Below are positions 3,730 to 19,815 of a DNA stretch of 64,000 nt, one piece after another. The notes beneath the pieces are model-generated. The model saw nothing but the letters and a program-made list of their open reading frames with translations. It was not told the origin of the DNA and did no database searches. The position numbers and the translations under genes are program-made. Positions within the stretch are counted from its first letter, which is position 1, and every line of letters starts with the position of its first letter. This DNA is from Rhodanobacter sp. FW104-R8 (GTDB lineage: Bacteria > Pseudomonadota > Gammaproteobacteria > Xanthomonadales > Rhodanobacteraceae). The stretch covers positions 1 to 64,000 of the forward strand of contig NZ_LVJR01000028.1 of the NCBI RefSeq assembly GCF_001617365.1. Direction: 5' to 3'.

Positions 3730-4821
3730 TTATCGCACCCACATATAGAGGAGCGCGCCGAACAGGGCTCCGCTCGGCAAGGTGACCACCCATGCGAGCG
3801 CGATACCGGCAACCACCTTGCGATTCACCCCGCTCGGCCCGCTGGCCCCCGCGCCGGCCAATGCACCAACGGCGACATGCGTGGTTGATACCGGCAGGCC
3901 ATTGAAGCTCGCCGTGCTGACCAGCAGGCTGGTCGTCATGCTCGCCGCGAGCGAAGCGCCAAGGTCCAGATGGGTGATCTTGTCGCTCATGGTACGAGCC
4001 ACCCTGCGTGCGCCGAGCAGGCCCCCCAACAGCATCGCGATCGCCACGGCAAACACTGCCGTGTGGCTGTCGAGCAATGCGATGGGCAGCAACAGGGCGG
4101 CAATCTTCGGTGTGTCGTTGAGCCCGCGAGCGAAGCCTACGGCGCCCGCGAGAAGGAAATGCAGCGCGTTGACCACCCCGGTGGCATCGAAGCGCACGAA
4201 GACGCGCGTGCCGTCGTTGACGCATTCCGTCGTGCTTCCGGCACGCAGAACGACTGTGTCCCGCACCATCACGCCTTCGGATGTGGTGATCGCGCCCTGC
4301 TCGACGCACAGGCAATCGACACGTTTCTTCGCCGCGTGTGCCGCCAGCCAGCGCGTCAGCGGAGCGATGAGGAACGCGGGAACGATTGCGATCAGCGGAC
4401 TGGCCAGCAACGGGAGCAGGAAACTCTTGCCCAACGAGGCGAAATGCACGTCCATCCCGGCGGCGACCAGGCCGGCACCGCTCATCGCACCGATCAACGC
4501 ATGCGTGGTCGAGATGGGCAGTCCGCGCCAGGATGCCAGTGTGATGGTCAGGCCGGCACCGCCTGCTACCGCGAAGGCGAAGCCGGTTTGCGCGGCGATG
4601 TCGGGGGATACCAAGCCGACACCCGTAAATGTCTTGAGCAGCGTCTGGGCGAGGTAGAGCGAACCCAACGAACCAGCCAGCGTGGTGATACTGGCCCAAC
4701 CAAGGCTGGCCCAATAACCCACGGTGCGGCTGCCATACAAGGTGGCTACGCCCTTGAAGTTGTCGTTGGCGCCGTTGGTCGCGGCCAGCAGCAGTACGGT
4801 AATGAACAGGGCAACGGTCAT
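3730..4821 (-). CDS. PiT-family inorganic phosphate transporter
   Basis: A 363-residue polytopic inner-membrane protein of the PiT (phosphate/sulfate permease) family. The two family signatures are present: an N-terminal ATNGANDNFKG near residue 14 and a C-terminal GLPVSTTHVAVGA repeat. It is last in the arsenosugar operon, and its start codon overlaps the preceding stop (ATGA at 4818-4821), implying translational coupling. PiT carriers normally move phosphate and may admit arsenate. Its place here suggests phosphate or arsenate supply or efflux for the pathway; that role is inference. Confidence 0.88.
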   Translation of the reverse strand: MTVALFITVLLLAATNGANDNFKGVATLYGSRTVGYWASLGWASITTLAGSLGSLYLAQTLLKTFTGVGLVSPDIAAQTGFAFAVAGGAGLTITLASWRGLPISTTHALIGAMSGAGLVAAGMDVHFASLGKSFLLPLLASPLIAIVPAFLIAPLTRWLAAHAAKKRVDCLCVEQGAITTSEGVMVRDTVVLRAGSTTECVNDGTRVFVRFDATGVVNALHFLLAGAVGFARGLNDTPKIAALLLPIALLDSHTAVFAVAIAMLLGGLLGARRVARTMSDKITHLDLGASLAASMTTSLLVSTASFNGLPVSTTHVAVGALAGAGASGPSGVNRKVVAGIALAWVVTLPSGALFGALLYMWVR

Positions 4822-5510
4822 GCATGGACTCCCGCCAACGAGGTTTCATCTGTGATGGCGAGCAGCCAGGCGTGCAGCGTGCGCTGTGCCGGCAGCAGGT
4901 CGGGCAGCGCCGCCAGTGCCTGGATCAGTACGGGCAAATCCGCTGCGTCGTCGGTATCCGCGAGCATGGGCAAAGTGCCGAGATGGCCGCGCGCCGCCAA
5001 TGCATCGCGCAACTGCATGGCGGTATCCGGCCGTGAATAGAGCACGCTGAGCCAGGCGTTGCGGTCGACTGGTTCGCGGCCGCCGAATAGCCAGAAACCG
5101 CCGTCAGCGGCATCGCCCAGCACGAACGGACTGTCCCCGGCATTCAGTACGGCCAGCGCACGCCCGAGCAAGGCCGGCGTCAGCTGCGGCGCATCGGCGC
5201 CAATCAGCAGTACGCGCCCGTGGCGAGCCTGGAGCTCGCTATAGACATGGTGCAGGCGTTCGCCAAGGCCGCCCTCTCCCTGCCAGACATGCGCAAAACC
5301 CGACCACATCCGGTGCGCCGCCGGTTCGATTTCGGCAACCGCCCAATACGGAACCAGCGCCGGCCGGCAACTGCGCGCCACGGCAGCCGTGGCTGCAGCA
5401 GCCAGCCGATGAAAATGCGTGGCTTGCGCCGCGCCGATCGTGGCGGCCAGGCGCGTCTTCACCGGCGAGAACCCGGGCGTCTTGACGAAAATGGCCAGCG
5501 CCGGTGTCAT
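4818..5510 (-). CDS. TIGR04282-family arsenosugar biosynthesis glycosyltransferase (DUF2064)
   Basis: A 230-residue GT-A-like protein of the DUF2064/TIGR04282 type, a family named from its association with the radical SAM protein ArsS. The start ATPALAIFVKTPGFSPVKTRLA-type segment (IFVKTPGFSPVKTRL near residue 6) matches the nucleotide-binding opening of the family. GADAPQLTPALLGRAL near the middle fits the metal-binding GxD region. The ATG at 5510 was chosen because it overlaps the upstream stop (ATGA); the open frame extends further but the extension resembles nothing. Probably it attaches or processes the sugar part of an arsenosugar. Confidence 0.85.
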   Translation of the reverse strand: MTPALAIFVKTPGFSPVKTRLAATIGAAQATHFHRLAAAATAAVARSCRPALVPYWAVAEIEPAAHRMWSGFAHVWQGEGGLGERLHHVYSELQARHGRVLLIGADAPQLTPALLGRALAVLNAGDSPFVLGDAADGGFWLFGGREPVDRNAWLSVLYSRPDTAMQLRDALAARGHLGTLPMLADTDDAADLPVLIQALAALPDLLPAQRTLHAWLLAITDETSLAGVHA

Positions 5511-6217
5511 GCCCGCCTTCTGCGCAGCTCGCGCCATGCCGGCCATGCCTGGGCCGCAGTCAGCCGCCAGTGCCTGAGGGTGGTGGACAGCCAACCTTGC
5601 CGGGCGTATTTGCGCGCGCTGGTTTCCAGTGAGGCGGGAATCCGGCGCAACGGGATGGCAGCATGGCGTGCTGCCCATACCAGCAGGTGATCTTCGCCAT
5701 AGCGGGCCAGCTCATCGAACCCATGCAGGGCCTGAAACCGATGCCGGGGCAATACCAGCCCCTGGTCGCCGAACGGGAGTCCGAGCCAGCGGGCACGACA
5801 ATTCGCGCCGATGGCGTTCAATACGGTCCACCGTGGGCCATCGCGGCGAAAGGCCAACTTGAACCAGCCCAGCGCGTCGGCATCCTCGGCCATGAACCGT
5901 TGCAGTTCGCATAGCGTGTCGGAGCGCAGGCGAGAATCGGCATGCAGGAACCATAACCAGTAGCCACTGGCCAGGCGCGCGCCCAGATTCTGCTGCCGCG
6001 CGCGGCCCGGTGCGGTACGACACTCGCGATAGCGTAGCCGTGCAGGCCAGCTTTTCGGCGGCGGCCGGGATTCGTCGTCGGCGCACACCACGATCACTTC
6101 ACTGCCGGCCGGCAAGGCCGCCAGCTGCAGCAGCAGGCCCTGCCACTCGGTCTCCCCGGGGGCCAACGGCACCACCACCGACAGCGAGCGTCGATCACCG
6201 CGATGACGAGTGTTCAT
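5507..6217 (-). CDS. TIGR04283-family arsenosugar biosynthesis glycosyltransferase (GT2-like)
   Basis: A 236-residue GT2-type glycosyltransferase of the TIGR04283 class found beside arsS. The opening RRSLSVVVPLAPGE is the beta-1 strand of a GT-A fold, with EVIVVCADDESR and WFLHADSRL supplying the acidic nucleotide/metal site. FGDQGLVLPR and FDELARYGEDHLLVWAAR are typical of the family C-terminal half. The longer open frame is noise before the MNTRHRGDRR start at 6217; an ATG two codons earlier (6223) is an alternative. It lies about 10 bases after arsM and overlaps the next gene by 4 bases. Confidence 0.85.
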   Translation of the reverse strand: MNTRHRGDRRSLSVVVPLAPGETEWQGLLLQLAALPAGSEVIVVCADDESRPPPKSWPARLRYRECRTAPGRARQQNLGARLASGYWLWFLHADSRLRSDTLCELQRFMAEDADALGWFKLAFRRDGPRWTVLNAIGANCRARWLGLPFGDQGLVLPRHRFQALHGFDELARYGEDHLLVWAARHAAIPLRRIPASLETSARKYARQGWLSTTLRHWRLTAAQAWPAWRELRRRRA

Positions 6218-6227
6218 CGGCATCGCG

Positions 6228-7292
6228 TCAGCAACAGGTCGATGTGTTCGCTGACGCGGCCGGTGCGCAGTCGAACAGGCCGAAGTGCCGGCGCTTGTTG
6301 CCGTCGATGCGGAAATGGGCCGCGTAACGACTGCCGGCCAGCATGTCGGCACTGTTGCCGCAGACCCGCAACGGCTTGCCGCTTTCGAACAGGTGATGGT
6401 CGTCCAGCGCGAACCGGTGCGGATGCGCCGGTATTGTGCCGAGGTAGGTCGCAGACTGGCCGTAGTCCTCGCAGCGATCCTCCAGCGACAGCTTGAAAAC
6501 CCGCCAGGTGATCGACTCGAAATGGGCAAAACCGATCTTTTGCTCGATCGCCTCGTCGGTCAGTGCGATCGGGCTGCGCACGCACACCCGTGCGTCGGCC
6601 ACGCCGAGTTCGCCCAGCAGGCGGCGAAAATCCTCCACGTACAGCGCGCCGGCCAGGCATTCACCGAGCAATACCGGATCGGCCAGCAGCTCGCGCGGCA
6701 GCCGGCGGTCGCTGTAGACGTCGGAGAAATACAGCTCGCCGCCGGGTTTGAGCACACGCAGGATCTCGGCAAATGCGCGGCGCTTGTCCGGCACCAGGTT
6801 CAGCACGCAATTGGATACCACCACATCGACCGACGCGTCAGCAACGCCGATTGCCGCGAGGTCGGTCAGATCGCCCAGACGAAACGTGACATTGGAACGG
6901 GCATGTCCAAAGGCCTGCGCGTGAAAGTCGCGATGCCGCTCGGCGACGACCAGCTGCTGCGCCGTCATGTCGACGCCGATGACATGACCCCGCTCGCCGA
7001 CCAGCTTCGACATCAGGTAAGCATCGCGACCACTGCCGCACCCCAGATCCAGCACCGTCATGCCGTCCAGCGCCGGCGGCAGTGGCGAGCCACAACCGTA
7101 GAAACGGTCGCGTACTTCCGGGTGCAACTGGGCCAGGATCGCGCGCAGGTGTACGGGTATCGCATCGATGCTGCAGCACGCCGCGGTGCGCAAGTCGTTG
7201 CTGGACTGCAGGGTTTCGCCGTAATAGCGGCGCACCGCCGATTGCTGCTCTTCGGCAGCGCCGCCGATTTCGTGTTCCAGGTCCATGTTCAT
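6228..7292 (-). CDS. arsM: Arsenosugar-type arsenite S-adenosylmethionine methyltransferase ArsM
   Basis: A 354-residue class I SAM methyltransferase. The family opening YYGETLQSSNDLRTAACC places a conserved vicinal cysteine pair at residues 39-40. The SAM-binding motif VLDLGCGSGRDAYLMSKLV and a later Cys in SNCVLNLVPDKRRAF supply the further arsenic-thiolate position expected of ArsM. The C-terminal third is the extension found in arsenosugar-cluster ArsM proteins. The start at 7292 forms an ATGA overlap with arsS; the upstream 69 codons of open frame are an artefact. It methylates As(III) to give the dimethylarsenical that ArsS adenosylates. Confidence 0.9.
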   Translation of the reverse strand: MNMDLEHEIGGAAEEQQSAVRRYYGETLQSSNDLRTAACCSIDAIPVHLRAILAQLHPEVRDRFYGCGSPLPPALDGMTVLDLGCGSGRDAYLMSKLVGERGHVIGVDMTAQQLVVAERHRDFHAQAFGHARSNVTFRLGDLTDLAAIGVADASVDVVVSNCVLNLVPDKRRAFAEILRVLKPGGELYFSDVYSDRRLPRELLADPVLLGECLAGALYVEDFRRLLGELGVADARVCVRSPIALTDEAIEQKIGFAHFESITWRVFKLSLEDRCEDYGQSATYLGTIPAHPHRFALDDHHLFESGKPLRVCGNSADMLAGSRYAAHFRIDGNKRRHFGLFDCAPAASANTSTCC

Positions 7293-8269
7293 GTCAACGA
7301 TCCTCCACAGGAGCTGCCCGCACCGGCGGTGCAGCCATAACAATGATTGGCAAAAGCGATCGGCTCGCGTTCTATGTCCGTCAGCCCCGCGATGTCCCAG
7401 ATGCTGCGCCGCCGGCCACCCTGCGGCAGGTCCAGCGCCTGGTTGAAATCGCAGTCGTACAACTGGCCGTCCCAGCTCACCGACAGCAGGTTGCGGCACA
7501 TTACGCCCGGCGCGGCCTGCGGGTTGAACGCATCGAGCAGGGTGTGCATGTAGGTTTCGTAACGACCCTCGCGTTCCAGCAGATGCAGGAAACGCTTGAT
7601 CGGCATATTGGTGATGGTGAACAGGCGGTTGAACACGATGCCGAAGTGCTCGGCCAGTTCGCGCCGGTAGGTTGTCTCCAGTACCGCCTGCGCCGGGGGC
7701 AAGCTGGCGCCCAACGGGTTGTAGACCAGATCCAGTTCCAGCCCGGAGCCAGCGTGGCCGTAGCCGAGCGCATTGAGCTGGCGCAGGGCGCGCAGGCTGG
7801 GATCGAACACATGCTGACCGCGCTGCCTTTCAACGTTGGCCTTGCTGTAGCACGGCAGCGAAGCGACCACCTTGACGCCCTGCGCGGCCAGGAATTCCGC
7901 GGTGTCCTCCTGTCCCGGGCGAAACAGTACGGTCAGGTTGCAACGGTCGATCACGGTCCTGCCCAGCGCGCGCGCCTCGCGCACCAGGGTGCGGAAATGC
8001 GGGTTGAGCTCGGGCGCGCCGCCAGTCAGATCCAGCGTGTGCACCGCAGGCGCATGAGCCATCAGTTCAAGGATGCGATCAACGGTTGCCGCCTGCATGA
8101 TTTCAGTGCGTTTGGGGCCCGCCTCGACGTGGCAGTGCTGGCAGGCCAGGTCGCACAGCTTGCCGACGTTGACCTGCAGGATTTCCAGCGGCAGGCGCGG
8201 CAACGCCAGCCCATGCTCCCGCAGGGTGCGGGCAAACGATGGCAGTGACAAAGCAAGAACAGCGTTCAC
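7289..8269 (-). CDS. arsS: Arsenosugar biosynthesis radical SAM protein ArsS
   Basis: A 326-residue radical SAM enzyme with the CX3CX2C cluster at C39, C43 and C46 (KLCDLACQHCHVEAGPKR). The C-terminal DUF3641-type tail has the CYGCTAGAGSSCGG motif, where some relatives carry selenocysteine. Here all positions are cysteine. ArsS is known to transfer the 5'-deoxyadenosyl group to dimethylarsenite, the step from methylated arsenic to arsenosugar. The start codon is GTG at 8269, with a weak GAGG upstream. It is the first gene of the five-gene minus-strand operon running to 3730. Confidence 0.92.
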   Translation of the reverse strand: MNAVLALSLPSFARTLREHGLALPRLPLEILQVNVGKLCDLACQHCHVEAGPKRTEIMQAATVDRILELMAHAPAVHTLDLTGGAPELNPHFRTLVREARALGRTVIDRCNLTVLFRPGQEDTAEFLAAQGVKVVASLPCYSKANVERQRGQHVFDPSLRALRQLNALGYGHAGSGLELDLVYNPLGASLPPAQAVLETTYRRELAEHFGIVFNRLFTITNMPIKRFLHLLEREGRYETYMHTLLDAFNPQAAPGVMCRNLLSVSWDGQLYDCDFNQALDLPQGGRRRSIWDIAGLTDIEREPIAFANHCYGCTAGAGSSCGGSLT

Positions 8270-8478: not shown

Positions 8479-10620
8479 TCACTTCAGCCGCCAGGCGTGA
8501 TAGCGCGCCAGCCAGCCCAGTACCCGCTCGGGCGCATGCGCCTTCTTCCAGTTGCCGGCGGCGTACTTGTTCGCCTCCGCCCAGGTCGGATAGGCGTGGA
8601 TGGTGCCCAGGATCTTGTTCAGGCCAAGCCCGTGGCGCATGGCCAGCACGAACTCGGCCAGCATCTCGCCGGCATGCTGGCCGACGATGGTCGCGCCGAG
8701 GATGCGGTCCTTGCCGGGCGGGGTCAGGATTTTCACGAAGCCGTGCGCCTGATCCTCGGTAATGGCGCGATCCAGCTCGTCCAGTTCGTAGCGGGTGACT
8801 TCGTAAGCGGTCGCCCGTTCCCGCGCCTCGCGCTCGTTGATGCCGACGCGCGCCACCTCGGGATCGACGAAGGTGACGGCCGGAATGACCGAGTAGTCGG
8901 CGCGGAAGCGACGAAACTGGCCAAATAGCGCGTTGACGGTGGCATACCAGGCCTGATGCGCGGCGGTGTGCGTGAACTGGTACGGGCCGGCGACATCGCC
9001 GCAGGCATGGATGTTGGGATACAGCGTGGCCAGGTACGCGTCGGTCGGCACCGTGGGCGCGGCAGCGATGCCCAGTGCCTCCAGGCCGAGGCCAGCCGTG
9101 CGTGGTTTGCGACCCACCGCCACCAGCAACGTGTCGAAATACAGTTGTGCGCGCTGGTCTCCGGCCTCACACACCAGCACATGCCCATCGCCGAGCGGCT
9201 CGACGGCTACGGCCTTGTGGCCGATGCGCACGTCCACCCCATCGGCGCTCAGTCGGGCCTGCACGAAGGCGGAGACTTCGTCGTCCTCGCGCAGCAGCAG
9301 ACGGTCGAAGGCCTCGACCTGGATCACGGCCGACCCCAGCCGCGCAAAGGCCTGCGCCAGCTCGCAACCGATGGGCCCGCCGCCGAGTACCAGCAGATGC
9401 CGGGGCAGTTCACGCAACTGCCACAGCGTCTCCGAGGTCAGATAGCCCGAAGTGGCCAGGCCTGGAATCGGAGGCACCAGCGGCTCGGCACCGGAAGCGA
9501 TCACGATGGCGCGCGTGCTGATCGGCTCGCCGTCGATTTCCACCACCCAGGGCGACACGATGCGCGCGTGGCCGCGCCGCACGTCGACACCCAGTGCACG
9601 GTACCGCTCGATCGAATCGTGCGGCACCACCGTGGCCACCGCCTTCCGCACGCGCTCCATGACCGCCCGGAAATCGATCCGCACCTGGCCCGTCTCCACA
9701 CCGGCCCGCGCGGCACCACGTGCCTGCGCCGCCATCCGGGCGGCATGGATCAGCGCTTTGGACGGCACGCAGCCGGTGTTGAGGCAATCGCCCCCCATCG
9801 CCTGCTCTTCGACCAGCGTGACCTTCGCGCGCACCGTCGCGGCAATGTAGGCACTGACCAGCCCCGCCGAACCCGCGCCGATCACTACCAGGTTGCGGTC
9901 GAACCGCTTCGGTTTCGGCCAGCGCCCATAGGCCCGGCAGGCTTTCATGCGGGCGACGATCCATCGTGACAGCAGCGGAAATACGCCAAGCAGCGCAAGC
10001 GATCCGAGCATCCGGGGCGACAGGACACCCGACATGGATTGCAGCGCAGCCAACTGCGTACCCGCATTGACGAAGACCACCGTCGCCGCCAGCATGCCGA
10101 CCTGACTGACCAGGTAGAACGTGCGCGTTGGCAACATGGTCAGCCCCATCAGCAGGTTGACCGCGAAGAAGGGAATCACCGGAACCAGCCGCAGCGTGAA
10201 CAGGTACAACCCGCCTTCGCGCCGGATGCCTTCGTTGATCGCATGCAGGCGTTTGCCGAAGTGCTGCTGCACGGCATCGCGGAATACGAGGCGGCTGGCC
10301 AGGAACGCCAGTGTCGCCCCGATGCTGGAGGCAAAAGATACGAGCAACGTGCCCTCCAGCAGCCCGAACAAGGCGCCGCCCGCGAGCGTCAGCAACGTCG
10401 CGGCGGGGAGCGAAAAGGCCGCAAACGCCACATACACAAGAAAGAAGGCTGCCGCGAGGGATACCGGATGGGCCTGGCGATAGCCATCCAGCGCGTGCTG
10501 CCGGCCCTTCAGCGCCTCCAGACTGAACTGATGCTGCAGACCCAGCGCGAAGAAGGCGACTACCACGCCAAGCAGCCCGACGAGAATCAGTGACCGGATG
10601 AGCGTGGTCTTGTTTTTCAT
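8479..10620 (-). CDS. Fusion of VTT (TVP38/TMEM64) membrane domain and FAD-dependent disulfide oxidoreductase
   Basis: A 713-residue fusion. Residues 1 to about 225 are a polytopic VTT/SNARE-associated domain with the signature LRLVPVIPFFAVNLLMGLTMLP. After a short basic linker, residues from about 240 form a complete class I pyridine-nucleotide-disulfide reductase. It has the FAD motif VVIGAGSAGLVSA, the redox-active pair in GGDCLNTGCVPSKAL, an NAD(P) motif HLLVLGGGPIGCELA, the FAD motif ACGDVAGPYQFTHTA and the dimerisation end IHAYPTWAEA. It resembles mercuric reductase or dihydrolipoamide dehydrogenase, but the substrate is unknown. It lies 209 bases upstream of arsS on the same strand, so a thiol-redox role near arsenic metabolism is plausible but unproven. 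Confidence 0.88.
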   Translation of the reverse strand: MKNKTTLIRSLILVGLLGVVVAFFALGLQHQFSLEALKGRQHALDGYRQAHPVSLAAAFFLVYVAFAAFSLPAATLLTLAGGALFGLLEGTLLVSFASSIGATLAFLASRLVFRDAVQQHFGKRLHAINEGIRREGGLYLFTLRLVPVIPFFAVNLLMGLTMLPTRTFYLVSQVGMLAATVVFVNAGTQLAALQSMSGVLSPRMLGSLALLGVFPLLSRWIVARMKACRAYGRWPKPKRFDRNLVVIGAGSAGLVSAYIAATVRAKVTLVEEQAMGGDCLNTGCVPSKALIHAARMAAQARGAARAGVETGQVRIDFRAVMERVRKAVATVVPHDSIERYRALGVDVRRGHARIVSPWVVEIDGEPISTRAIVIASGAEPLVPPIPGLATSGYLTSETLWQLRELPRHLLVLGGGPIGCELAQAFARLGSAVIQVEAFDRLLLREDDEVSAFVQARLSADGVDVRIGHKAVAVEPLGDGHVLVCEAGDQRAQLYFDTLLVAVGRKPRTAGLGLEALGIAAAPTVPTDAYLATLYPNIHACGDVAGPYQFTHTAAHQAWYATVNALFGQFRRFRADYSVIPAVTFVDPEVARVGINEREARERATAYEVTRYELDELDRAITEDQAHGFVKILTPPGKDRILGATIVGQHAGEMLAEFVLAMRHGLGLNKILGTIHAYPTWAEANKYAAGNWKKAHAPERVLGWLARYHAWRLK

Positions 10621-10713
10621 GCGTCGAATGACCGAAGGAAACCGAATGGCGTCAACACGACCGACCGGCGCTCATGGAGTTCTCCGCCATGCGCTGGGGC
10701 GGCGCGGGGCAAC

Positions 10714-11223
10714 TCAATCCTTCAGATACTCCTGGACCATCTGGCGACCGCGGTGAATGCGGCTCTTCACTGCCTGGCGCGTCAGCAGCAGCCGGTCGGC
10801 GATCTCGGTAATCGAAAATTCCTCGAAATCGCGCAGGATTATCGCTTCGCGATACTTGTCCGGCAACGACTGGATGGCGGCCGCCAGATCGCGGCGCAGA
10901 TCGAAGCGGTCGGTGTAAGTGAAAATGGGGTGATCCGACTCCGGCAGTTCGACCTGCCCGCGCATCGAACGCAGCAACCGCTGGCATTCCCGTCGTACGA
11001 TCGAAAACGTCCACGCCGGGAACGCAGAGATCGTGCGCAACGCGCCAATGCGTCGGTAGATCAACAGCAGTGATTCCTGCACCGCATCGTCCGGATCCAC
11101 GCTGCTCGCGCATTGCGACTGGGCGATACGGCGCAGGCCGGGACGGCACAAAATCAACAGCTTCTCCACGGCAGCGAGGTCGCCCTGACGTGCGGATTCC
11201 AGCAGTATGGGGTCATGTTGCAT
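10714..11223 (-). CDS. ECF RNA polymerase sigma factor, likely regulator of the bufferin regulon
   Basis: A 169-residue ECF sigma-70 factor. Region 2 includes DPDDAVQESLLLIYRRIGAL, and region 4 is PDKYREAIILRDFEEFSITEIADRLLLTRQAVKSRIHRGR, a helix-turn-helix that would read the -35 element. No anti-sigma gene is adjacent; Caulobacter-type systems pair the sigma factor with NrsF. A promoter motif at 11282-11315, upstream of this gene, recurs before four further units up to 17.7 kb, implying autoregulation and control of the bufferin block. That assignment is inference from shared motifs and location. Confidence 0.88.
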   Translation of the reverse strand: MQHDPILLESARQGDLAAVEKLLILCRPGLRRIAQSQCASSVDPDDAVQESLLLIYRRIGALRTISAFPAWTFSIVRRECQRLLRSMRGQVELPESDHPIFTYTDRFDLRRDLAAAIQSLPDKYREAIILRDFEEFSITEIADRLLLTRQAVKSRIHRGRQMVQEYLKD

Positions 11224-11281
11224 GGGGCACCTCGCGATGGCAGCTCGATGATGTGGTGCAGGAATGGCCCTACCACATTCA

Positions 11282-11315
11282 CCCTATAGAGGGAACCAAT
11301 ACCCGAAAGGATTCA
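11282..11315 (-). promoter_or_regulatory. Putative ECF promoter (motif A) of the sigma-factor gene
   Basis: On the minus strand TGAATCCTTTCG is followed after 12 bases by CTCTATAGGG, about 60 bases before the sigma ATG. The -35-like block (11304-11315) and the -10-like block (11282-11291) have the same spacing as four other copies in the region. Function is inferred from repetition and placement. Confidence 0.65.
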
Positions 11316-11364
11316 AAATCGGCGTCGAGCCGCCACGCCGCGGTGAAACACATCCGGGTCTGGC

Positions 11365-11862
11365 CTAAAGGGCCGGGCGGCGACCGATGGGCCAGAACCT
11401 CACCAGCCACCGATCGAGCGACAGGCTGCCCGGCCCCCATGCCACGAGGGCCAGCAGCATCAGGGCCCATATCTTGTGGTCGTTGAAATCGCTACCCATC
11501 AGCCCGGTCCAGAAACCGTGCGGCCACAGATCGGGATAGGAAGTCACCGCCATGATGTTGTAGATGAACAAGAACGCGGCGGTGAGTCGCCCGCCCAGCC
11601 CCAACAGGAGGAACCAGGGCAGGATCAACTCGATCCAGGTGCCGAGGAATGCCGCAGCGTCGCCGGACAGCAGCGGCACGTGATACTCGTTGTTGAACAG
11701 GTAGGACGTGCCGGAGGGATCTTCGAACTTCACCACGCCGGCCCGCCAGAACGCCAACGCCACCCAGACCCGGAACAGCAGCAGGGCGAGCGGCCCCAGC
11801 CCCGAAAACACGTGGACGAGTCGCTCATAGCGATCCCCTGTCCAGGCAAGAAACTTGTTCAT
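11365..11862 (-). CDS. DoxX-family membrane protein of the bufferin operon
   Basis: A 165-residue DoxX-type protein with about four membrane segments (for example LGPLALLLFRVWVALAFWRAGVVKF and LIPWFLL-type helices). DoxX-like proteins are regular members of DUF2282-DUF692-DUF2063 operons, where they are sometimes called BufD. The start at 11862 overlaps the bufC stop (ATGA) and has the ribosome-binding site CGAGGAGAGCGG. As the last gene of the operon it may act as a redox or export accessory; no catalytic motif is visible. Confidence 0.82.
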   Translation of the reverse strand: MNKFLAWTGDRYERLVHVFSGLGPLALLLFRVWVALAFWRAGVVKFEDPSGTSYLFNNEYHVPLLSGDAAAFLGTWIELILPWFLLLGLGGRLTAAFLFIYNIMAVTSYPDLWPHGFWTGLMGSDFNDHKIWALMLLALVAWGPGSLSLDRWLVRFWPIGRRPAL

Positions 11863-12644
11863 GTCCCGCTCTCCTCGTCGATAAATGCCACGATCAACCC
11901 CTGCGCAAGCAGATCCCGCAGGCAGGGTTCCGGATCGAAGCCGTCGTCCACCTCGGATGCCACCCGACAAGCCGACGCCATATCACGCCCATCGGCCAGC
12001 GCCTCGATGCAGCGGAAGGTGGCCGGATCGACGGTCGTCATCGCCACGTCGCCGCCGTCGCGCCACAGCAGCACATGTTCGCCGTTGCCCTCGAGTTTCA
12101 GTGCTGGTCCATCCGGCATCCGGCACCAGTGCCAGATCGTCAGTACGGCGTGATCGCTGCGCAGCCTCTGCAGGCTCGGATGCAGGCGGACGCGCAGCCG
12201 GTCCGGCGCCACCGCGGCCGCGTCGGCACCCATGGCGGCACTGACGGACACGGCATCGGGTGCCAGGGCAGCGACCTGGCGCAACCAGTCCAGGCGCGCC
12301 ACATCCGCCAGATAGCCCAGCGCCCGCACCTCCGGCATGGTGGCGATGAACCCGGCCAGCGAGCCGCCGAACTGCTGCAGGTTGCCGCAGGTCGAAGGGT
12401 GCTGCAGTCGATAGCGCTCCGCCATGGCCTCGAAAAACGCCTCGCCGACCAGGGCCAGCACGGTGGGATAGCTGTCGCGCAAGGCCGCCGTCAGGGTTCC
12501 GGCCACCGCGTGCCGGTAGATACGCAATCGCGCCGAAGGCTCGAGTCCGGCACCATCGACCCACGTTGCCGCGGCGTCGCCTCGCCCCAGCAGGGCGTCG
12601 ACGAAACCTCGCTGCAGCTCACGCAATCGCGGTGCGGCAGGCAT
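11859..12644 (-). CDS. bufC: BufC/HvfC-type RiPP maturation partner (DUF2063 N-terminal domain)
   Basis: A 261-residue protein whose N-terminal half is the DUF2063 'putative DNA-binding' domain (LRELQRGFVDALLGRG, then LRIYRHAVAGTLTAALRDSYPTVLALVG). In metallophore RiPP systems this is the recognition partner that delivers the precursor to the DUF692 oxygenase, not a DNA-binding protein. It overlaps bufB by 26 bases and doxX by 4, so it is tightly coupled to both. The C-terminal half is the less conserved domain usual for BufC. Confidence 0.85.
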   Translation of the reverse strand: MPAAPRLRELQRGFVDALLGRGDAAATWVDGAGLEPSARLRIYRHAVAGTLTAALRDSYPTVLALVGEAFFEAMAERYRLQHPSTCGNLQQFGGSLAGFIATMPEVRALGYLADVARLDWLRQVAALAPDAVSVSAAMGADAAAVAPDRLRVRLHPSLQRLRSDHAVLTIWHWCRMPDGPALKLEGNGEHVLLWRDGGDVAMTTVDPATFRCIEALADGRDMASACRVASEVDDGFDPEPCLRDLLAQGLIVAFIDEESGT

Positions 12645-13485
12645 GCAGCCTCTCCTCGGCCCGGCCGGCTTCGGCCAGCAGAACTTCCAGCTCGGGAATG
12701 TCCTGATCCCATTCGATCAACGTAGGCTGCGCACCGCACAGCTCCAGCGCCTCGCCGTAAAGGGCCCAGACTTCGTCGGCCACCGGCCGGCTATGGCTGT
12801 CGATCAGCATGGGAACGGGCAGATGTCCCTTCCGGATGAAGCCGGCCAGGTGTATTTCGCGCACTGACGCATGCGGCATGGCACGCAGATAGTCATGGGG
12901 GTCGAACCCGTGGTTGATACTGTTGACGTAGATGTTGTTCACGTCCAGCAACAGCCCGCAACCGCTGCGACGGACCAATTCCGCCACAAACGCGGACTCC
13001 GGCATGTCCGCGTCGCGAAAGCCCAGATAGCTCGACACGTTCTCTACCAGGAACTCGCGCCCCAGCGCCTCCTGTACCTGCGACACCCGCGAAACCATCA
13101 GCGCCAGCGCTTCCTCGGTGAAGGGCAATGGCAGCAGTTCGTTCATGTGCGCGCCGCCGAACGCCCCCCAGCAAATATGGTCGGAAACCAGCGCCGGTTC
13201 GTAGCGATCAACCAGTCTGCGCAAGGTGGCGAGATGCGCCTGGTCGAGGGCATCGGCCGAGCCCAATGACAAGCCGACGCCGTGCAGGCTCAGCGGATAG
13301 TCGGCACGAATGCGCTCCAACGCGGCGTGCATGGCGCCACCTGCGCCGAAATAGTTCTCGCTGTGCACCTCGAACCAGGGTACGGGTGGCCGCTCGGCCA
13401 GCACGCGTTCAATGTGCGGGGCGCGCAACCCGATCCCGGCAGCCGCCGGGACCGGTCGCTGCACGAAGGGCAGCACAGGGTTCAT
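12619..13485 (-). CDS. bufB: BufB-type multinuclear iron oxygenase (DUF692, MbnB-like)
   Basis: A 288-residue TIM-barrel DUF692 enzyme. Iron-ligand-type residues sit in WFEVHSENYFGAGG, LSLHGVGLSLGS, LVSDHICWG, FLVENVSSYLGF, LLLDVNNIYVNSINHGFDP and EIHLAGF, closing with LIEWDQDIPELEVLL. Relatives (MbnB, BufB, HvfB) oxidatively convert cysteines of RiPP precursors to oxazolone/thioamide or thiooxazole groups that bind copper. It lies 8 bases after bufA. The start at 13485 was chosen because the longer frame runs antisense-like through bufA in another frame. Confidence 0.92.
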   Translation of the reverse strand: MNPVLPFVQRPVPAAAGIGLRAPHIERVLAERPPVPWFEVHSENYFGAGGAMHAALERIRADYPLSLHGVGLSLGSADALDQAHLATLRRLVDRYEPALVSDHICWGAFGGAHMNELLPLPFTEEALALMVSRVSQVQEALGREFLVENVSSYLGFRDADMPESAFVAELVRRSGCGLLLDVNNIYVNSINHGFDPHDYLRAMPHASVREIHLAGFIRKGHLPVPMLIDSHSRPVADEVWALYGEALELCGAQPTLIEWDQDIPELEVLLAEAGRAEERLHACRTAIA

Positions 13486-13493
13486 CGCGTTGC

Positions 13494-13790
13494 TCAGCCC
13501 TTGTCGGCCGGACTGGTCGAGCCGCCGTCGATCTTCTCGCACAGGCCGGCCGGTACCGCGACGAACGCGCTCGGGTCGCGCGCCTTGCTGTCCTGGCCGG
13601 CGCAGGAATGCCCCGGCGACTTGCAGTCGTTCTTGTGGGCCGCATTGATGCCGTAGCACTTGGTCATGCCCATGTCGCCGGCTTTCGCGCCGCCGGCACC
13701 GGCAGGTGCCGGCGCAGCAGTGGCCATCGCGGCGACGCCGAGCGTCAGGGCGCCGACCAGGGCCGTTTTCAGCAGGTTCTGGCTGTTCAT
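13494..13790 (-). CDS. bufA1: BufA1-type periplasmic bufferin precursor (DUF2282)
   Basis: A 98-residue secreted peptide: a signal sequence ([21 protein letters not shown]), a Gly/Ala linker, then a core with four cysteines at 45, 56, 63 and 84 ([27 protein letters not shown]). This is the DUF2282/bufferin pattern; known bufferins are copper-binding RiPPs whose cysteines are modified by BufB-BufC. The ATG at 13790 has GGAG nine bases upstream; 13799 is an alternative start. It is the first gene of the bufA-bufB-bufC-doxX operon and has an ECF-type motif 41 bases upstream. Confidence 0.9.
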
Positions 13791-13830
13791 GATGCGCATC
13801 TCCGTAGAGTGAACCGGATCTTTCCGGCAA

Positions 13831-13863
13831 CCCATAGAGCACCTGATCAGGCGAAAGGATTCA
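13831..13863 (-). promoter_or_regulatory. Putative ECF promoter (motif A) of the bufferin operon
   Basis: Minus-strand TGAATCCTTTCG (13852-13863) is followed after 12 bases by CTCTATGGG (13831-13839). Both blocks are essentially identical to the copy before the sigma gene, and the bufA ATG is about 41 bases downstream. Confidence 0.68.
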
Positions 13864-14050
13864 TTCGCCCGGAACCCGGTTCGCCGTGCATTCGTGAATC
13901 GGATGCATCGGTTCGAATGCCGCGCACTTTGCGGGAGCCGCAAGTCGACCCATGGGGTTCCATCGCGACGGTCCCCGCGGACGCCGCAAACGATCGAAGT
14001 GATTCCGCTGCCCGCGGCAATCCACCCCTCGTCGCCTTGGTCCGACGGCG

Positions 14051-14737
14051 CTACGCGTTGAGCTTCGCGTCAAGCGCGATGGCCTGGTGAGAGAGGATTT
14101 CCAGCCGGGTGTCCTCGAGTACCGCACGCCCTTTCCAGGCGGACAGCATCGTGTCACGCGCTCCGAGGATCATGCGGATCTCGTCCATGCAGAGCGCGAC
14201 GACGCACTCCAGCACGGTGTCGATCGCATCATGGCCGGTGCGCAGGCGCATGTCGGCGAGGATCCGCGCGGTGGCGGATGCGCTGAGCATCAGGTCGCCG
14301 GTGACCCAGCTGTTGACCGTGAACAGGCTGACCGGAAGCCCCTTGGCATCCATCCCGATGGCCAGCAAGTGCCGCGTGGCGACCTGCCTGCCGGGGTTGC
14401 CTGTCAAGGCCGCAAAGGTCCGCTCCGCCTTTGACTGCATGCGCCGGGACCAGAGTGGGCGGCGGGCGAACAGGTGGAAATGGCCGTGCTCGGCAGCCGC
14501 CGGCCGATCCTCCGGCGAATGCGAGTGGTAGAACCACTGGTAGCCGCCGTCCGGGTCGATCGAATCGTCCTCGGGATAATGCTGCCACTGGCGAGGCACC
14601 TGGCCCCCGAGCAGATCGTGCAGCAGGTGTTCGCCGCGCGTCGCGAGTACCGCGTACGTGTCGAGCAAGCGCCGGCCGGCGAGCCCTGTCCGGCGCGCGG
14701 CCGGGTTCGGCGATCGCCGGCCAGGCGCGGAGGCCAT
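14051..14737 (-). CDS. DUF6969-type protein coupled to the Cys-rich peptide gene
   Basis: A 228-residue cytoplasmic protein, likely of the DUF6969 family, with the conserved-looking centre [21 protein letters not shown] and [10 protein letters not shown], rich in Asp and His and so possibly metal-binding. No signal peptide is present. The start at 14737 shares one base with the stop of the Cys-rich gene (TGATG), so the two are translationally coupled. The family has no known biochemical role that I can cite. A modifying or chaperone role for the peptide is inference from the coupling. Confidence 0.72.
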
Positions 14738-15012
14738 CAGTGCTGGGCCGCACACTTCGGCGCACACTTTTGGGCACCGCACTTCGGCGCACATTTTTGG
14801 GCACCGCACTTCGCGTGCATGGAGGCATGCTTCTTGATGGCGTGGCGCTTGTTCGGAGCACACTTGCCTGCGCACTTCGCGCCGCACGCGGCCATGCCAG
14901 ACGCGGGATGGCAGGTTTCCTGGGCGCCGCCCATGCTGGTCGCCGCAACAGGAAGGGCGACGATGGCGGCGGTCAAGGCGGCCAGCGAAGCCAGCTTCAA
15001 GGAATTTTTCAT
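14737..15012 (-). CDS. Small secreted Cys-rich repeat protein, candidate metallophore precursor
   Basis: A 91-residue protein with a signal peptide (LKLASLAALTAAIVALPVAA) and a mature part holding nine cysteines at 34, 43, 47, 51, 69, 74, 78, 83 and 87. The C-terminal segment is a tandem KCGAQKCAP repeat (residues 68-76 and 77-85). Spaced Lys-Cys-Gly/Ala repeats recall HvfA-type RiPP metallophore precursors, but the KCAPK pattern differs and no DUF2282 core is present. ECF motif A lies 56 bases upstream, as for bufA. It could be processed in trans by BufB-BufC or act as a plain thiol-metal buffer; both are inference. The start has GGAG upstream. Confidence 0.78.
   Translation of the reverse strand: MKNSLKLASLAALTAAIVALPVAATSMGGAQETCHPASGMAACGAKCAGKCAPNKRHAIKKHASMHAKCGAQKCAPKCGAQKCAPKCAAQH
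14758..14811 (-). repeat. 27-bp tandem direct repeat encoding KCGAQKCAP
   Basis: Two adjacent 27-base units (14785-14811 and 14758-14784) differ at one base and encode the same nonapeptide. The near-identity at DNA level suggests recent in-frame duplication of the metal-binding segment. Confidence 0.85.
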
Positions 15013-15067
15013 AGGGATCTCCAGGTTGAGGTGTCGAAACAAGGCAGAGACTTTTTGGTCTCGAAGG

Positions 15068-15097
15068 AGAGAGGCGGCCTTGCGACGAAAAGATTCA
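15068..15097 (-). promoter_or_regulatory. Putative ECF promoter (motif A) of the Cys-rich gene
   Basis: Minus-strand TGAATCTTTTCG (15086-15097), then 12 bases, then CTCTCT (15068-15073), about 56 bases before the ATG at 15012. One mismatch in each block compared with the bufA copy. Confidence 0.6.
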
Positions 15098-15112
15098 AAC
15101 CTCGAACGAACA

Positions 15113-16537
15113 TCAATGCTCATCGCGCCGCATATCCCGCAGGAACGACTGGAATTCCGGTGACTCTCCGAGCAACTGCCCCGCCAGGGCGCGCAGGGCA
15201 TCCACCTGGGCGGAGCGCAGATGAAAGGCGGTCGGCATCGCATTGAAGCGCTGCCGCTCGGCGGGGTCGGCGATCTGGTTGAACGTCAGTACGGCGAAAT
15301 CGACCTTGACCCCGGGTTCGCCCGGTGGGCGCATGGCACTGACGTGCCGGGCCCACATCAGGAAGCCATTCTTGGCGAGGGAGACGGTTTCGGTGTTGAG
15401 GATGCCCAGTGACGCATCGAATGAGGCGCGCACCGTATTGATCAGACCCGGTGCGCGACCCTCCACCGACCACGCATAGGGCGCGTAGACCTGCGCGTTG
15501 GCGACGATGACCAGGACGTGCCGCACGCGGTGCAGTTGTTCCGGCGTGAACGCACCCGCCATGTTCGGCACATCACCATATTGCGCGACAGGGCTCATCA
15601 TCGAACCACGCACGCCGAGGTTGTCGGTCACGCCGCCATCGACGAGGCGCAGGATCGGCATCTGCTGCGGATCGTCGTAGCGCGAAAGCGCGCGGGCTAC
15701 GGCGTAGCGACGGTCCAGCATGTCGTCATGCGCCAGTGACTCGGTCACCCACGACTGGTGGCGTTGCGGGCAATCGGGGTAATTGCGCAGGGCGATCGGC
15801 GCAAACGGCCCCGGTACGGCGGCCGACGCCATCACCGCGTTGGCCACCGGATAGGTGGACAGGTCCGAGCACAGGAAATCAAACTGCTGCTGGATGAAGG
15901 AAAACGTCGTGGCGTTGTTCAGGTCGCTCGCGTTGAGGATGATCATCGGCAATCCGGCCGGCGACATATCGGCGAAGGTCTTCCCTTCGAGCAAAGTACG
16001 ATCGAGGTAGGCGGCCATCAGGTCGCTGCGACTGTAATGGCGACCGGCGATCGATAGCAGGTGATCGGGGCGCCACAACAGGCCCAGCAGTTCGCCCTGC
16101 CAGTCGCGGTACAGAAACCGGAACCGGAAGTCACGGAAGATGCGGTCGCCGAACAGGCCGTAGTAGGCCGCCGTATAGCTCCCGCCGGAAACCGACGTGA
16201 TCACGTCCACCAGATTCAGCAGGGGCGTCCGTTGCCCTCCTGCCATCACCTCGGTATCGCGCAATTTTTCCAGCACGCCATAGCTGAAGGCGGCCGCACG
16301 GGTACCACCGCCGGAAAAAGCGAGTACGACGAAGGTATCGCGGATGGCGTGTGGAAAGCGCGTCCCGAACTCGTAGCGATCCTCCACTCCGACCGGCTTG
16401 ATCCGGGTATTCCACGTGCGCGTCGCACAACCCGTCGGCCCGGCCAGGAGCAAGCCGAGCAACAAGAGTCTGGACAGGCCGCGCAACAAGTCATGCGTCG
16501 CGTCCCTCCTGGCAGGCCCTTCACCTGAATCCGCCAT
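15113..16537 (-). CDS. Patatin-like phospholipase, probable lipoprotein
   Basis: A 474-residue patatin-fold hydrolase with an N-terminal membrane signal (LLRGLSRLLLLGLLLAGPTGC) that may end in a weak lipobox. The oxyanion motif FSGGGTRAAAFSYGVLEKL is followed by the nucleophile elbow SVSGGSYTAAYYG and the catalytic Asp in LVDGGVTDNLG. The expected first Gly of GXSXG is Ser. The ATG at 16537 follows the good site AGAGGGC; the longer open frame is noise overlapping the DUF427 gene. It starts 25 bases after DUF427, so the two are probably co-transcribed. The likely substrate is an envelope phospholipid or acyl ester. Confidence 0.86.
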   Translation of the reverse strand: MADSGEGPARRDATHDLLRGLSRLLLLGLLLAGPTGCATRTWNTRIKPVGVEDRYEFGTRFPHAIRDTFVVLAFSGGGTRAAAFSYGVLEKLRDTEVMAGGQRTPLLNLVDVITSVSGGSYTAAYYGLFGDRIFRDFRFRFLYRDWQGELLGLLWRPDHLLSIAGRHYSRSDLMAAYLDRTLLEGKTFADMSPAGLPMIILNASDLNNATTFSFIQQQFDFLCSDLSTYPVANAVMASAAVPGPFAPIALRNYPDCPQRHQSWVTESLAHDDMLDRRYAVARALSRYDDPQQMPILRLVDGGVTDNLGVRGSMMSPVAQYGDVPNMAGAFTPEQLHRVRHVLVIVANAQVYAPYAWSVEGRAPGLINTVRASFDASLGILNTETVSLAKNGFLMWARHVSAMRPPGEPGVKVDFAVLTFNQIADPAERQRFNAMPTAFHLRSAQVDALRALAGQLLGESPEFQSFLRDMRRDEH

Positions 16538-16562
16538 GATGCCCTCTTGCGCATGTCCCCTT

Positions 16563-16844
16563 TCAGGACTGCACCTTGACCCCTCGCCAGAACGCGACGT
16601 GACCGCGGATTTCGGCAGCCGCCGGTTTCGGATCCGGGTAGTACCAGGCCGCGTCGGAGTTGATGTCACCCTCGACGATGACATCCAGGTAACTGGCCGT
16701 ACCTTTCCAGTGACACACCGAATGGTGGTCGCTTTCGCGAAAGTTCTCCCGCTTGAGCGATTCGCGCGGGAAGTAGTGGTTGCCCTCGACCACGATCGTA
16801 TGGGCGCTTTCTGCAATGACGGTGTCTTTCCACACTGCACGCAT
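16563..16844 (-). CDS. DUF427-family protein
   Basis: A 93-residue compact beta-rich DUF427 protein. The family pattern is clear: RAVWKDTVIAES, then GNHYFPRESLKRENF, then HHSVCHWKGTASYLDV and AAWYYPDPKPAAAEIRGHVAFW. DUF427 proteins are common in ECF-sigma-controlled sets, but no reaction is established. The ATG at 16844 has GAGGAG seven bases upstream. The nearest ECF motif (17071-17099) is about 225 bases upstream, leaving an unusually long leader. Confidence 0.85.
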   Translation of the reverse strand: MRAVWKDTVIAESAHTIVVEGNHYFPRESLKRENFRESDHHSVCHWKGTASYLDVIVEGDINSDAAWYYPDPKPAAAEIRGHVAFWRGVKVQS

Positions 16845-17161
16845 GACACTTCTCCTCGCTGACGGCGCACCATTCGGCGCCCACGGTCCACTGCTGGATG
16901 GCATATGCACCTTGATCCTTCCCGGCAACGCCAGGCGCACTCGTACTTCCAACGAACGCAACCACCTCAAATCAGATCGGAAGATTCCCGCGCCGGCAGC
17001 ATACCGGCCGGCAGGCGAGTAATCCGAAGGATGGCCCTCGCCACCCGGCCAAGAGGCGAAGCCTGCTTCGTAGAGTCGACGGGCAAGCAAAAGGATTCAC
17101 CACGGCGGGCAGATCACGAAGAATCTTCACGTATCGGCGCCGCGACGGTTCATGCGCTTCG
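16845..17161. other. Gene-free interval between the DUF427 gene and the PagL-like gene
   Basis: Apart from the ECF motif at 17071-17099 no gene is supported here. If that motif is the promoter, most of the interval is a roughly 220-base 5' leader of the DUF427-patatin transcript. I see no coding frame with a recognisable product in it. Confidence 0.5.
17071..17099 (-). promoter_or_regulatory. Putative ECF promoter (motif A) upstream of DUF427-patatin
   Basis: Minus-strand TGAATCCTTTTG (17088-17099), then 12 bases, then CTCTA (17071-17075), followed by CG. Block identity and spacing match the bufA copy. Confidence 0.6.
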
Positions 17162-17605
17162 TCATGGCGTCTTCATGTCCACGCCGACCAGCAGCATCGT
17201 CTCGCCGAGATTCGGCTTCCGGGTGCCGCCGTTGGAGACATGCCTTATCAGGATGGCGAAGCCGTGCCGGGACCAGCCCAACGAACTCACAAATTGCTGA
17301 GTGCTGCTCAAGGCTTTCGTCCGTGGCGCCGCTGCCCCCAGCTGAAAGCTGAAAAACATGTGGTGCCAGAGCTCCGGCAGACGAATGCCTGCCGCAGCAA
17401 CCCAGACACTGCGGTCGAAATCTCCTCCCTGGTGCCGGCGGGCCGCCACGTAGGAGAGTCCCATGTCGGGCTGCACTTCGAGGCCTTTCCATGAGCGCGT
17501 GGTACCCAGTCCATCGTGCATCGAGTATCCGGCCCCGCCAGCGCGATCAGACGACCGACGATGGGCGAGGGCGCGCACAGCGGGTCCGGTAGGCTCGGAA
17601 TTCAC
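17162..17605 (-). CDS. PagL-like lipid A 3-O-deacylase (acyloxyacyl hydrolase), N-terminus apparently defective
   Basis: The C-terminal part matches the PagL outer-membrane beta-barrel: SSTQQFVSSLGWSRHGFAI, then IRHVSNGGTRKPNLGETMLL. It retains the His-x-Ser pair and a downstream Glu of the catalytic triad. Such enzymes remove the 3-O-acyl chain of lipid A. No signal peptide is found in any of the three frames upstream. An ATG at 17686 lies upstream of the predicted transcription start, so translation may begin at GTG 17605 or ATG 17521. This suggests the gene lost its signal sequence or is decaying. The catalytic part shows no internal stop. Confidence 0.6.
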   Translation of the reverse strand: MNSEPTGPAVRALAHRRSSDRAGGAGYSMHDGLGTTRSWKGLEVQPDMGLSYVAARRHQGGDFDRSVWVAAAGIRLPELWHHMFFSFQLGAAAPRTKALSSTQQFVSSLGWSRHGFAILIRHVSNGGTRKPNLGETMLLVGVDMKTP

Positions 17606-17668
17606 AGTCCGTGAGCACGGGGGGATGGCGGTGAACTCCCTCTGCCGCTGTGCAACGCCCTCACCCGC

Positions 17669-17698
17669 ATAGAGCAGGCAAACCACCCATCGGATTCA
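17669..17698 (-). promoter_or_regulatory. Putative ECF promoter (motif A) of the PagL-like gene
   Basis: Minus-strand TGAATCC (17692-17698) is followed 17 bases later by CTCTATGCG (-10 block 17669-17674). The five bases after TGAATCC differ from the other copies, but the spacing is the same. Confidence 0.5.
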
Positions 17699-17706
17699 TT
17701 GGCGCC

Positions 17707-18561
17707 TCACGACGACCGCGAGGCGCCCGGCGAACGCCCGTGAATGCGCTTGAAGGCGCGACTGAACGCGGCCTCCGTCGCATAGCCGGCGATCACCGCC
17801 GCCTCGGCCACGCTGACGCCACGCTCGGCCAGCGCCGACTGTGCCTGCTGCATGCGCAGGCCGGTGACGTAGTCCATGGGAGTGACCCCGACCGCCTGGA
17901 CAAACCGTCGCGCGAACGCGGCCCGCGACAAATGTGCGGTGTCGGCGAGGGCGGCAACCGTCCAGGGATGCTGCGGATCATGATGCAAGGCCAGCAGCGA
18001 CGCACCCAGGGAAGGATCGGACATCGCGCTCAACAACCCCCGTTCCACGGTGCCCGAGGTCACGCACTGTCGCAGTGCGTACATGAACAGCGCATCGGAC
18101 AGCTTGTCCATCAGCAGCATGGCGCCGGGGCCGTTCTGCTCGGCCTCGGCGATGATCAACTGCAGCAGCGCCGCCGGCGCTCCGGACGCCATATTCTCCG
18201 GCGTCGGGTTGTGTCGAAGCAGCATCTGCGCCGGCAATGAAGCCAGCAACACTTCGGCCAGTGGCGAGTCAAACTCGAAGTAACCGCACAACAGCAGCGT
18301 GCCGACGGTGTCGTCAGCGTCACGCGGAGCGATCAGGCAGTGGTCCTGCGGGCGGATGAACAACACCGCGTCGCCGGCCTGCAGCGCCACGTCGGCCGCG
18401 CCATCGTCCGTGCGCAGCACACAGGAGCCACCAGCCACCAGATGGAACATCGCCTTGCGCTCGTACTCACCGTCGAGGGTCCACTGCCCGCAGTGGGCAG
18501 TCCGATGAAACACGCGTGTCTGCAGGCGCAGATGGCGCATCAATTCGCTCAGTTCGTCCAC
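17707..18561 (-). CDS. AraC-family transcriptional regulator with cupin sensor domain
   Basis: A 284-residue regulator. The N-terminal cupin-type domain (MFHLVAGGSCVLRTDDG, LQAGDAVLFIRPQDHCLI) is followed by two C-terminal helix-turn-helices: WTVAALADTAHLSRAAFARRF and VSVAEAAVIAGYATEAAFSRAF, closing HGRSPGASR. It starts with GTG at 18561 after a good GGAG. Divergence from the AhpD-like gene at 18701, with 139 bases between, suggests it controls the plus-strand redox cluster. The inducer is unknown. Confidence 0.88.
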   Translation of the reverse strand: MDELSELMRHLRLQTRVFHRTAHCGQWTLDGEYERKAMFHLVAGGSCVLRTDDGAADVALQAGDAVLFIRPQDHCLIAPRDADDTVGTLLLCGYFEFDSPLAEVLLASLPAQMLLRHNPTPENMASGAPAALLQLIIAEAEQNGPGAMLLMDKLSDALFMYALRQCVTSGTVERGLLSAMSDPSLGASLLALHHDPQHPWTVAALADTAHLSRAAFARRFVQAVGVTPMDYVTGLRMQQAQSALAERGVSVAEAAVIAGYATEAAFSRAFKRIHGRSPGASRSS

Positions 18562-18700
18562 GGCAGCTCCAGATCAAGACGCAGGGACAAGCATGCGCGC
18601 GCTGCGGGCATGGCTGCCGCCCCGGCCGGTTGTCAAAGTATGCCCGGGGCCGACGCGACATCCGATCGGCCGCACATCCAACCACCAAGGAGTATGACCC

Positions 18701-19258: not shown

Positions 19259-19372
19259 GCGCGGTACCCGAACGCCGTTATGTGGACAGGTCGGTCAACC
19301 CGATCGCCACCACTCCGATTGGGCAGTGCCATCCGCGCGTGCCGCACTGCCCGCCCTTCCTAGGAAGCACGA

Positions 19373-19693: not shown

Positions 19694-19815
19694 GAGGACC
19701 GTTCCACCCGGTGGAATCAGGCATGACGCGCAAAAACGGTTATTCGAGGTGCCCGGCAACGAAGCCGTGCTCCGCCGCACTCTACCGATACATCTACCTG
19801 CCGAGGAGCCATCCC

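Follow-up and report, generated by a model that had tools for sequence, protein, structure and literature searches.

A bufferin block with five promoter-like sites

The first 64,000 nucleotides (nt) of contig C28 of Rhodanobacter sp. FW104-R8 (3.72 Mb in 124 contigs), named here as the window, carry the gene of an extracytoplasmic function (ECF) sigma factor and, on the same minus strand, a bufferin operon with several further genes. Sequence comparison indicates that these very likely form a self-activating ECF regulon, in which the block sigma would act on five minus-strand promoters. As the same signal stands before every gene group, one protein very probably switches on the copper buffer and its neighbours.

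Five minus-strand sites before five units, as proposed in an initial annotation of this DNA, were found in their places, and the spacing between the -35-like and -10-like parts was identical in 5/5. The sequence TGAATC-N18-CTCTA was exact in four of them. The site of the cysteine-rich (Cys-rich) gene had been described correctly as TGAATCT, but its -10-like part reads CTCTC instead of CTCTA, which had been overlooked; the same site in relatives reads CTCTC in loci L096, L102 and L103 and CTCTA in L084 and L088. The distance from the -10 part to the start codon was 63 nt for sigma, 35 nt for bufA, 56 nt for the Cys-rich gene and 226 nt for DUF427. The genome scan for TGAATC-N18-CTCTA, which had been set beforehand as a check, returned four exact matches, every one inside the block, and none of 100 shuffles of the window contained any exact match, as compared with four in the actual window. 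When the gap was relaxed to N16-20, one extra genome match (N20) appeared outside the block. With up to one mismatch the whole genome gave eight matches, five within the block, and the reversed control one; with up to two mismatches the window gave six against 4.1 expected, and the pattern was no longer special. The stricter form YGAAYCYWWY-N14-CTCYW matched three times, all in the block, and its control not at all. Sigma-70-type promoters showed no excess in the block (one found, 2.6 expected).

The motif accompanies the sigma gene across genomes

The sigma was present in 28 of 233 family genomes (E 1e-20) and the exact motif in 41. At least one site was found in 20 of the 28 genomes with the sigma versus 21 of the 205 without it, and at least two sites in 16/28 versus 1/205 (Fisher 2e-16, a value that ignores the relatedness of the genomes). 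Among the 22 sites of sigma-less genomes, the extended -35 sequence TGAATCYWWY occurred once. From the loci of the 28 sigma genomes, 84 sites were kept, being either exact or with one mismatch plus the extended -35. Seventy-five of these lay within 450 nt upstream of a query-family gene, which is not an independent rate because several query families were chosen from genes already seen behind sites, and the other nine had none within that distance. The genes behind sites were bufA (17 genomes, three genera), sigma (13 genomes, five genera), DUF427 (eight genomes) and PagL, the Cys-rich gene, a phosphate permease and a CBS gene (five genomes each); in relatives DUF302 (three genomes), AhpC-like (three), OsmC-hydrolase (two) and FMN reductase (one) genes also have their own sites. 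The bufA copies in the family loci had a site in 20/22 cases, always 34–37 nt ahead of the start, and in 15/17 once the loci fetched for having a site were excluded; the two copies without a site were in L099, which ends at a contig edge, and L112. The motif stood ahead of the same genes in relatives even where these genes sit on separate contigs. At the level of sequence, the comparisons establish the sites, their specificity for the block and their tie to the block sigma.

One scan for sigma relatives gave 17 named loci. Six of these are labelled Rhodanobacter and have 75–89% identity; others, at 83–91%, come from metagenome bins that carry the labels Castellaniella, Burkholderiaceae and Pandoraea (L116, L119, L120, L126), where such close relatives of the sigma would reflect either gene transfer or binning error. 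In L108 and L109 a site lies just after the sigma gene and is followed, about 500 nt on, by a multicopper oxidase frame and an SCO1-like gene.

Distant relatives of the sigma factor and a blind motif search

ECF sigmas linked to DUF2892/YgaP genes in other Pseudomonadota have 39–53% identity to the block sigma and the same kind of promoter upstream of their operon. A blind Gibbs search for one 32-nt motif was run on the upstream stretches of 15 such operons (39–53% identity; 11 chromosomal and four plasmid; E. coli locus L149 excluded). The resulting motif, CGCGAA.C.TTT..C......G..GCCTCTT, begins 63–90 nt ahead of the YgaP-like gene in the 13 operons where that gene was detected. When both strands of the window were scanned with it, the five block sites ranked top with scores of 12.4–17.2, followed by 9.0 for the next hit. 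The family matrix, applied to about 198 kb around 11 distant sigmas, gave seven hits of at least 11 bits, and all seven were just upstream of the sigma operon; within the stretches fetched around the distant sigmas, the family motif was seen only there. At 9 bits the matrix found a site in one of five plasmid loci (Ensifer, L186). The blind search had a site in 4/4 plasmid loci supplied, yet every sequence receives a site by construction. An earlier test on distant relatives used seven sites picked by the family matrix and was partly circular, and the blind search took its place. The co-occurrence across genomes, the same genes in relatives and the recovery of the five sites by the blind motif together support the initial proposal that a single ECF sigma probably recognises these sites.

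We group these proteins as a DUF2892/YgaP-linked ECF subfamily (a grouping of this analysis), with a CGAATCCTTT...GCCTCT-type promoter, which the block matches, and with C38 and C80 in domain 2, both of which the block sigma has. The distant sigmas have a YgaP-like gene as partner, directly ahead of the sigma gene, whereas bufD takes that place beside the block sigma; the only YgaP-like match of the genome sits on contig C121.

In L176 (7338–9363; same order, other family), a 45%-identical sigma preceded by a site adjoins an MNIO gene (42% to BufB), and no YgaP-like gene was detected near it. Locus L149 represents a 46%-identical sigma found on enterobacterial IncC-type and other plasmids, with haloacid dehalogenase, carboxymuconolactone decarboxylase and TVP38/FAD-oxidoreductase genes as neighbours. 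Peroxidase-related and dehalogenase genes resembling these neighbours occur in the window at 18701–21535.

The sigma factor, its cysteines and its control

The block sigma is an ECF (group IV) protein, short and with regions 2 and 4 only, for which PF04542 and PF08281 scored above cut-off. C38 was found in 36/37 and C80 in 37/37 family copies, the sole row without C38 being L075, whose reading frame is off at its start. Both cysteines were present in 15/15 distant copies (13 chromosomal, two plasmid), and the genome's remaining 15 sigma-70-type proteins have neither. There is no cysteine after C80 (residues 81–169). Direct thiol or metal sensing by the sigma is a good hypothesis and not a result.

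The remark that no anti-sigma gene lies nearby also held for the known types, none of which turned up next to the block sigma; genome-wide, where NrsF and zf-HC2 were looked for and other types were not searched, the single NrsF match (contig C6) is beside another sigma gene, and two zf-HC2 matches (one above and one below cut-off) each adjoin a different sigma gene. One of these two anti-sigma-like zf-HC2 matches lies in the window (56719–57347, plus strand), directly behind a second ECF-type sigma gene with which it forms a separate pair. When open reading frames within 2.6 kb of the 37 sigma copies were clustered, a single membrane family, DUF6789, recurred on the strand of the sigma. It lies directly behind 10 of the copies, and in two of these ten it is broken; it was not found in the Rhodanobacter sp. 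FW104-R8 genome by a search that lacked a positive control.

The proposed regulon and its alternatives

In the proposed mechanism, the sigma (10714–11223) would recognise (T/C)GAATC(C/T)-N17-CTCT(A/T) and activate its own gene plus four further minus-strand promoters, and therefore the bufferin operon, the Cys-rich/DUF6969 pair and DUF427-patatin would rise together. Read-through from the sigma gene would add the TVP38/MerA-like gene and perhaps the arsenosugar-type series and the phosphate permease. The fifth promoter would have been retained and would now drive the PagL remnant only. Autoregulation would make the response switch-like. Less surely, the trigger may be oxidant stress or a thiol-reactive metal, with copper as the first candidate, acting through the C38/C80 pair with no adjacent anti-sigma. 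A broader version holds that members of a widespread ECF subfamily detect thiol-reactive metals or oxidants themselves, by way of the invariant cysteine pair of domain 2 and with no anti-sigma, and that in Rhodanobacter and relatives such a sigma took over, as a single regulon, the bufferin operon, other thiol- or metal-stress genes and possibly the arsenosugar-type series; taken as a whole, we regard this version as tentative and rather doubtful.

Several observations weigh against the proposed regulon. The co-occurrence test takes no account of relatedness, and the exact site is lacking in 8/28 sigma genomes. In six of these eight, a site with one mismatch lies close to the sigma gene or its operon, in G210 a one-mismatch site precedes the MerA-like gene, and G012 has none in a short contig. 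The sigma of G069 (47% identity) has no adjoining site, and the family matrix found none in the enterobacterial plasmid locus L149. Several of the 15 distant operons come from one genus, and the motif had already been seen ahead of some distant operons before the stretch length was chosen. The structure model of the sigma is weak in residues 60–105, and no claim is made on C38–C80 geometry. Promoter use and switch-like autoregulation are inferred from sequence, and so is copper as the signal.

With the one-sigma regulon retained, the signal has an even chance of being other than copper, namely arsenic, an oxidant or a different thiol stress, and a membrane protein (DUF6789, for example, or the YgaP-like protein found in relatives) might take part in sensing it. 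The ArsS-type series that follows the sigma gene points that way, as do genes that relatives have behind sites (AhpC-like, OsmC-hydrolase, FMN reductase and DUF302); the bufferin genes, as the commonest family target (17 genomes), point against it. The position of DUF6789 directly behind 10/37 sigma copies and of the YgaP-like gene before the distant sigmas would suit a membrane partner, but in this genome the former was not found (no positive control) and the latter matches on another contig.

The use of the sites by another sigma, for example that of a sigma-F/NrsF pair, with the block sigma as a passenger, is improbable. Such a sigma-F-type gene beside NrsF exists in this genome, and bufferin operons elsewhere are described as responding to pairs of this type (PMC3511200). 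However, the pair lies elsewhere in the genome and its sigma has its own GTAAC-N17-CGAA site, none of which occurs in 10401–18800, and the motif tracks the block sigma across genomes and precedes the operons of its distant relatives; sigma-F/NrsF was rejected as controller. It is still less probable that the sites are the operator of a transcription factor and not promoters. The AraC gene that closely precedes site 5, and that also precedes a site in several relatives, would provide a candidate, but the -35/-10-like spacing is fixed, the bufA distance is constant (34–37 nt), and the motif precedes distant sigma operons with an AraC match nearby in 0/11 fetched stretches (AraC query included). 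Finally, five similar sites inside 6.4 kb might be recent copies of one promoter with little regulatory meaning, which is hardly credible, as their agreement is confined to the -35 and -10 parts while spacers and flanks differ, each site is kept with its own gene in other genomes, and the spread of sites across genera speaks against recent copying.

Genes of the block and decayed units

The bufA-B-C-D genes make a Buf1-type cluster (DUF2282 precursor, MNIO maturase, DUF2063 and DoxX), and mature BufA has four cysteines (Table 1). The Cys-rich peptide repeats the unit CGAQKCAPK and could be a second metal-binding peptide; the Cys-rich and DUF6969 pair recurs in relatives, also outside the block (L084, L088). 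The block had been given as 7 kb, but the run of genes that follows the sigma gene on its strand extends well past that length, and its TVP38/MerA-like, arsenosugar-type and phosphate-permease genes had been omitted from the units. The genes from sigma through the phosphate permease may lie on one transcript.

Table 1. Sites, genes and leaders of the block and of the series behind the sigma gene (window coordinates).
Feature	Position	Strand	Remarks
Phosphate-permease-like protein	3730..4821	-	relatives have own site in 5 genomes
TIGR04282-like glycosyltransferase	4818..5678	-	128.4 bits, cut-off 134
TIGR04283-like glycosyltransferase	5507..6244	-	180 bits, cut-off 182
ArsM-like methyltransferase, start not fixed	6228..7427	-	under cut-offs
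ArsS-type radical SAM protein	7289..8269	-	TIGR04167 442.9 bits, cut-off 300
TVP38/MerA-like oxidoreductase, first gene behind sigma	8479..10620	-	under single-family cut-offs
ECF sigma factor, 169 aa, C38 and C80	10714..11223	-	regions 2 and 4
Promoter-like site 1, TGAATC-N18-CTCTA	11287..11315	-	upstream of sigma gene
bufD, DoxX	11365..11862	-	family match
bufC, DUF2063	11859..12644	-	family match
bufB, MNIO bufferin maturase	12619..13485	-	NF050167 385.7 bits, cut-off 310
bufA, DUF2282 bufferin precursor	13494..13799	-	PF10048 69.2 bits, cut-off 22.4; NCBIfam BufA2 29.9 of 60
Promoter-like site 2, TGAATC-N18-CTCTA	13835..13863	-	upstream of bufA
DUF6969 protein	14051..14737	-	overlaps Cys-rich gene
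Exported-looking Cys-rich peptide, 91 aa	14737..15012	-	no family match
Promoter-like site 3, CTCTC variant	15069..15097	-	upstream of Cys-rich gene
Patatin-like phospholipase	15113..16537	-	family match
DUF427 protein	16563..16844	-	family match; patatin gene next
Long leader upstream of DUF427	16845..17070	-	matches two L116 stretches flanking hydrolase-OsmC gene
Promoter-like site 4, TGAATC-N18-CTCTA	17071..17099	-	upstream of DUF427-patatin
PagL remnant without signal peptide, from frame's first possible ATG	17162..17521	-	20.2 bits, cut-off 23, for longer frame
Leader downstream of site 5	17522..17669	-	matches CBS-gene leader of L104
Promoter-like site 5, TGAATC-N18-CTCTA	17670..17698	-	upstream of PagL-like remnant

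The AraC-type gene just upstream of site 5 spans 17707–18561 (minus strand), and the order AraC then site recurs in several relatives. In L104 the order is AraC, site, CBS-domain gene and PagL. In the window, the leader after site 5 matches the CBS leader of L104, and the match after that is to internal PagL sequence; neither the CBS gene nor the signal peptide of PagL is left. G149 (L096), a near relative, has the same gaps, with PagL shifted in frame. A known RNA was considered for the long DUF427 leader and rejected, as Rfam at gathering score over 3000–22000 gave no known RNA in the leaders; the leader is better explained if the DUF427-patatin unit has lost a leading gene, which is hydrolase-OsmC in L116. 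Promoters thus seem to outlive their genes. The five units and the lipid remodelling assigned to this block therefore need adjustment, since the PagL unit is a truncated remnant and DUF427-patatin probably lacks its leading gene; the patatin gene is kept, and lipid remodelling here rests on it.

Relation to known systems

The proposed regulon would tie copper buffering to other stress genes under one sigma. The promoter is defined well enough for candidate regulon members to be picked out by sequence throughout a bacterial family, and how the sigma is activated can be addressed directly by point mutation of the two conserved cysteines. A literature search covering best-ranked titles and abstract openings found no report of the motif or the sigma. 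An ECF classification with 157 groups exists (PMC8999054), in which the group of the block sigma may be catalogued.

The sigma-F of Caulobacter crescentus, with a GTAACC-N16-CGAA promoter and NrsF, is reported to drive an MNIO/DUF2063 (bufferin-type) operon (PMC3511200), and RpoE7/EcfR7 of Sinorhizobium meliloti a DUF692-DUF2063 operon, its anti-sigma gene adjoining (PMC6180224). The block resembles both in that its ECF sigma would act on a bufferin-type operon as well as on the region of its own gene. It differs in its TGAATC-N18-CTCTA promoter, against the GTAACC-N16-CGAA or ATGTAAC type, and in having no anti-sigma adjoining. A survey describes Buf1 clusters, unlike Buf2 clusters, as containing sigma and NrsF genes (PMC12452194); Rhodanobacter sp. 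FW104-R8 also holds a sigma-F/NrsF pair, apart from the block sigma. In the block, an ECF sigma other than that of sigma-F/NrsF very probably drives the bufferin operon, with a different predicted promoter and no adjacent brake.

RpoQ of Cupriavidus metallidurans is encoded beside gig, a bufferin-type operon induced by copper and gold (PMC10304878); by that account RpoQ has a predicted membrane anti-sigma, RsqA, in a divergent arrangement, and control of gig by RpoQ is not yet shown. The block sigma is like RpoQ in being an ECF gene next to a bufferin-type operon, and unlike it in lacking the divergent arrangement and a predicted RsqA. CorE and CorE2 of Myxococcus xanthus are described as metal-responsive, cysteine-dependent ECF sigmas with no anti-sigma (PMC8999054). 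The CorE-like (former ECF44) features, which are a C-terminal Cys-rich domain and a linker CXC, are absent from the block sigma, which has no such extension and carries instead its conserved cysteine pair in domain 2.

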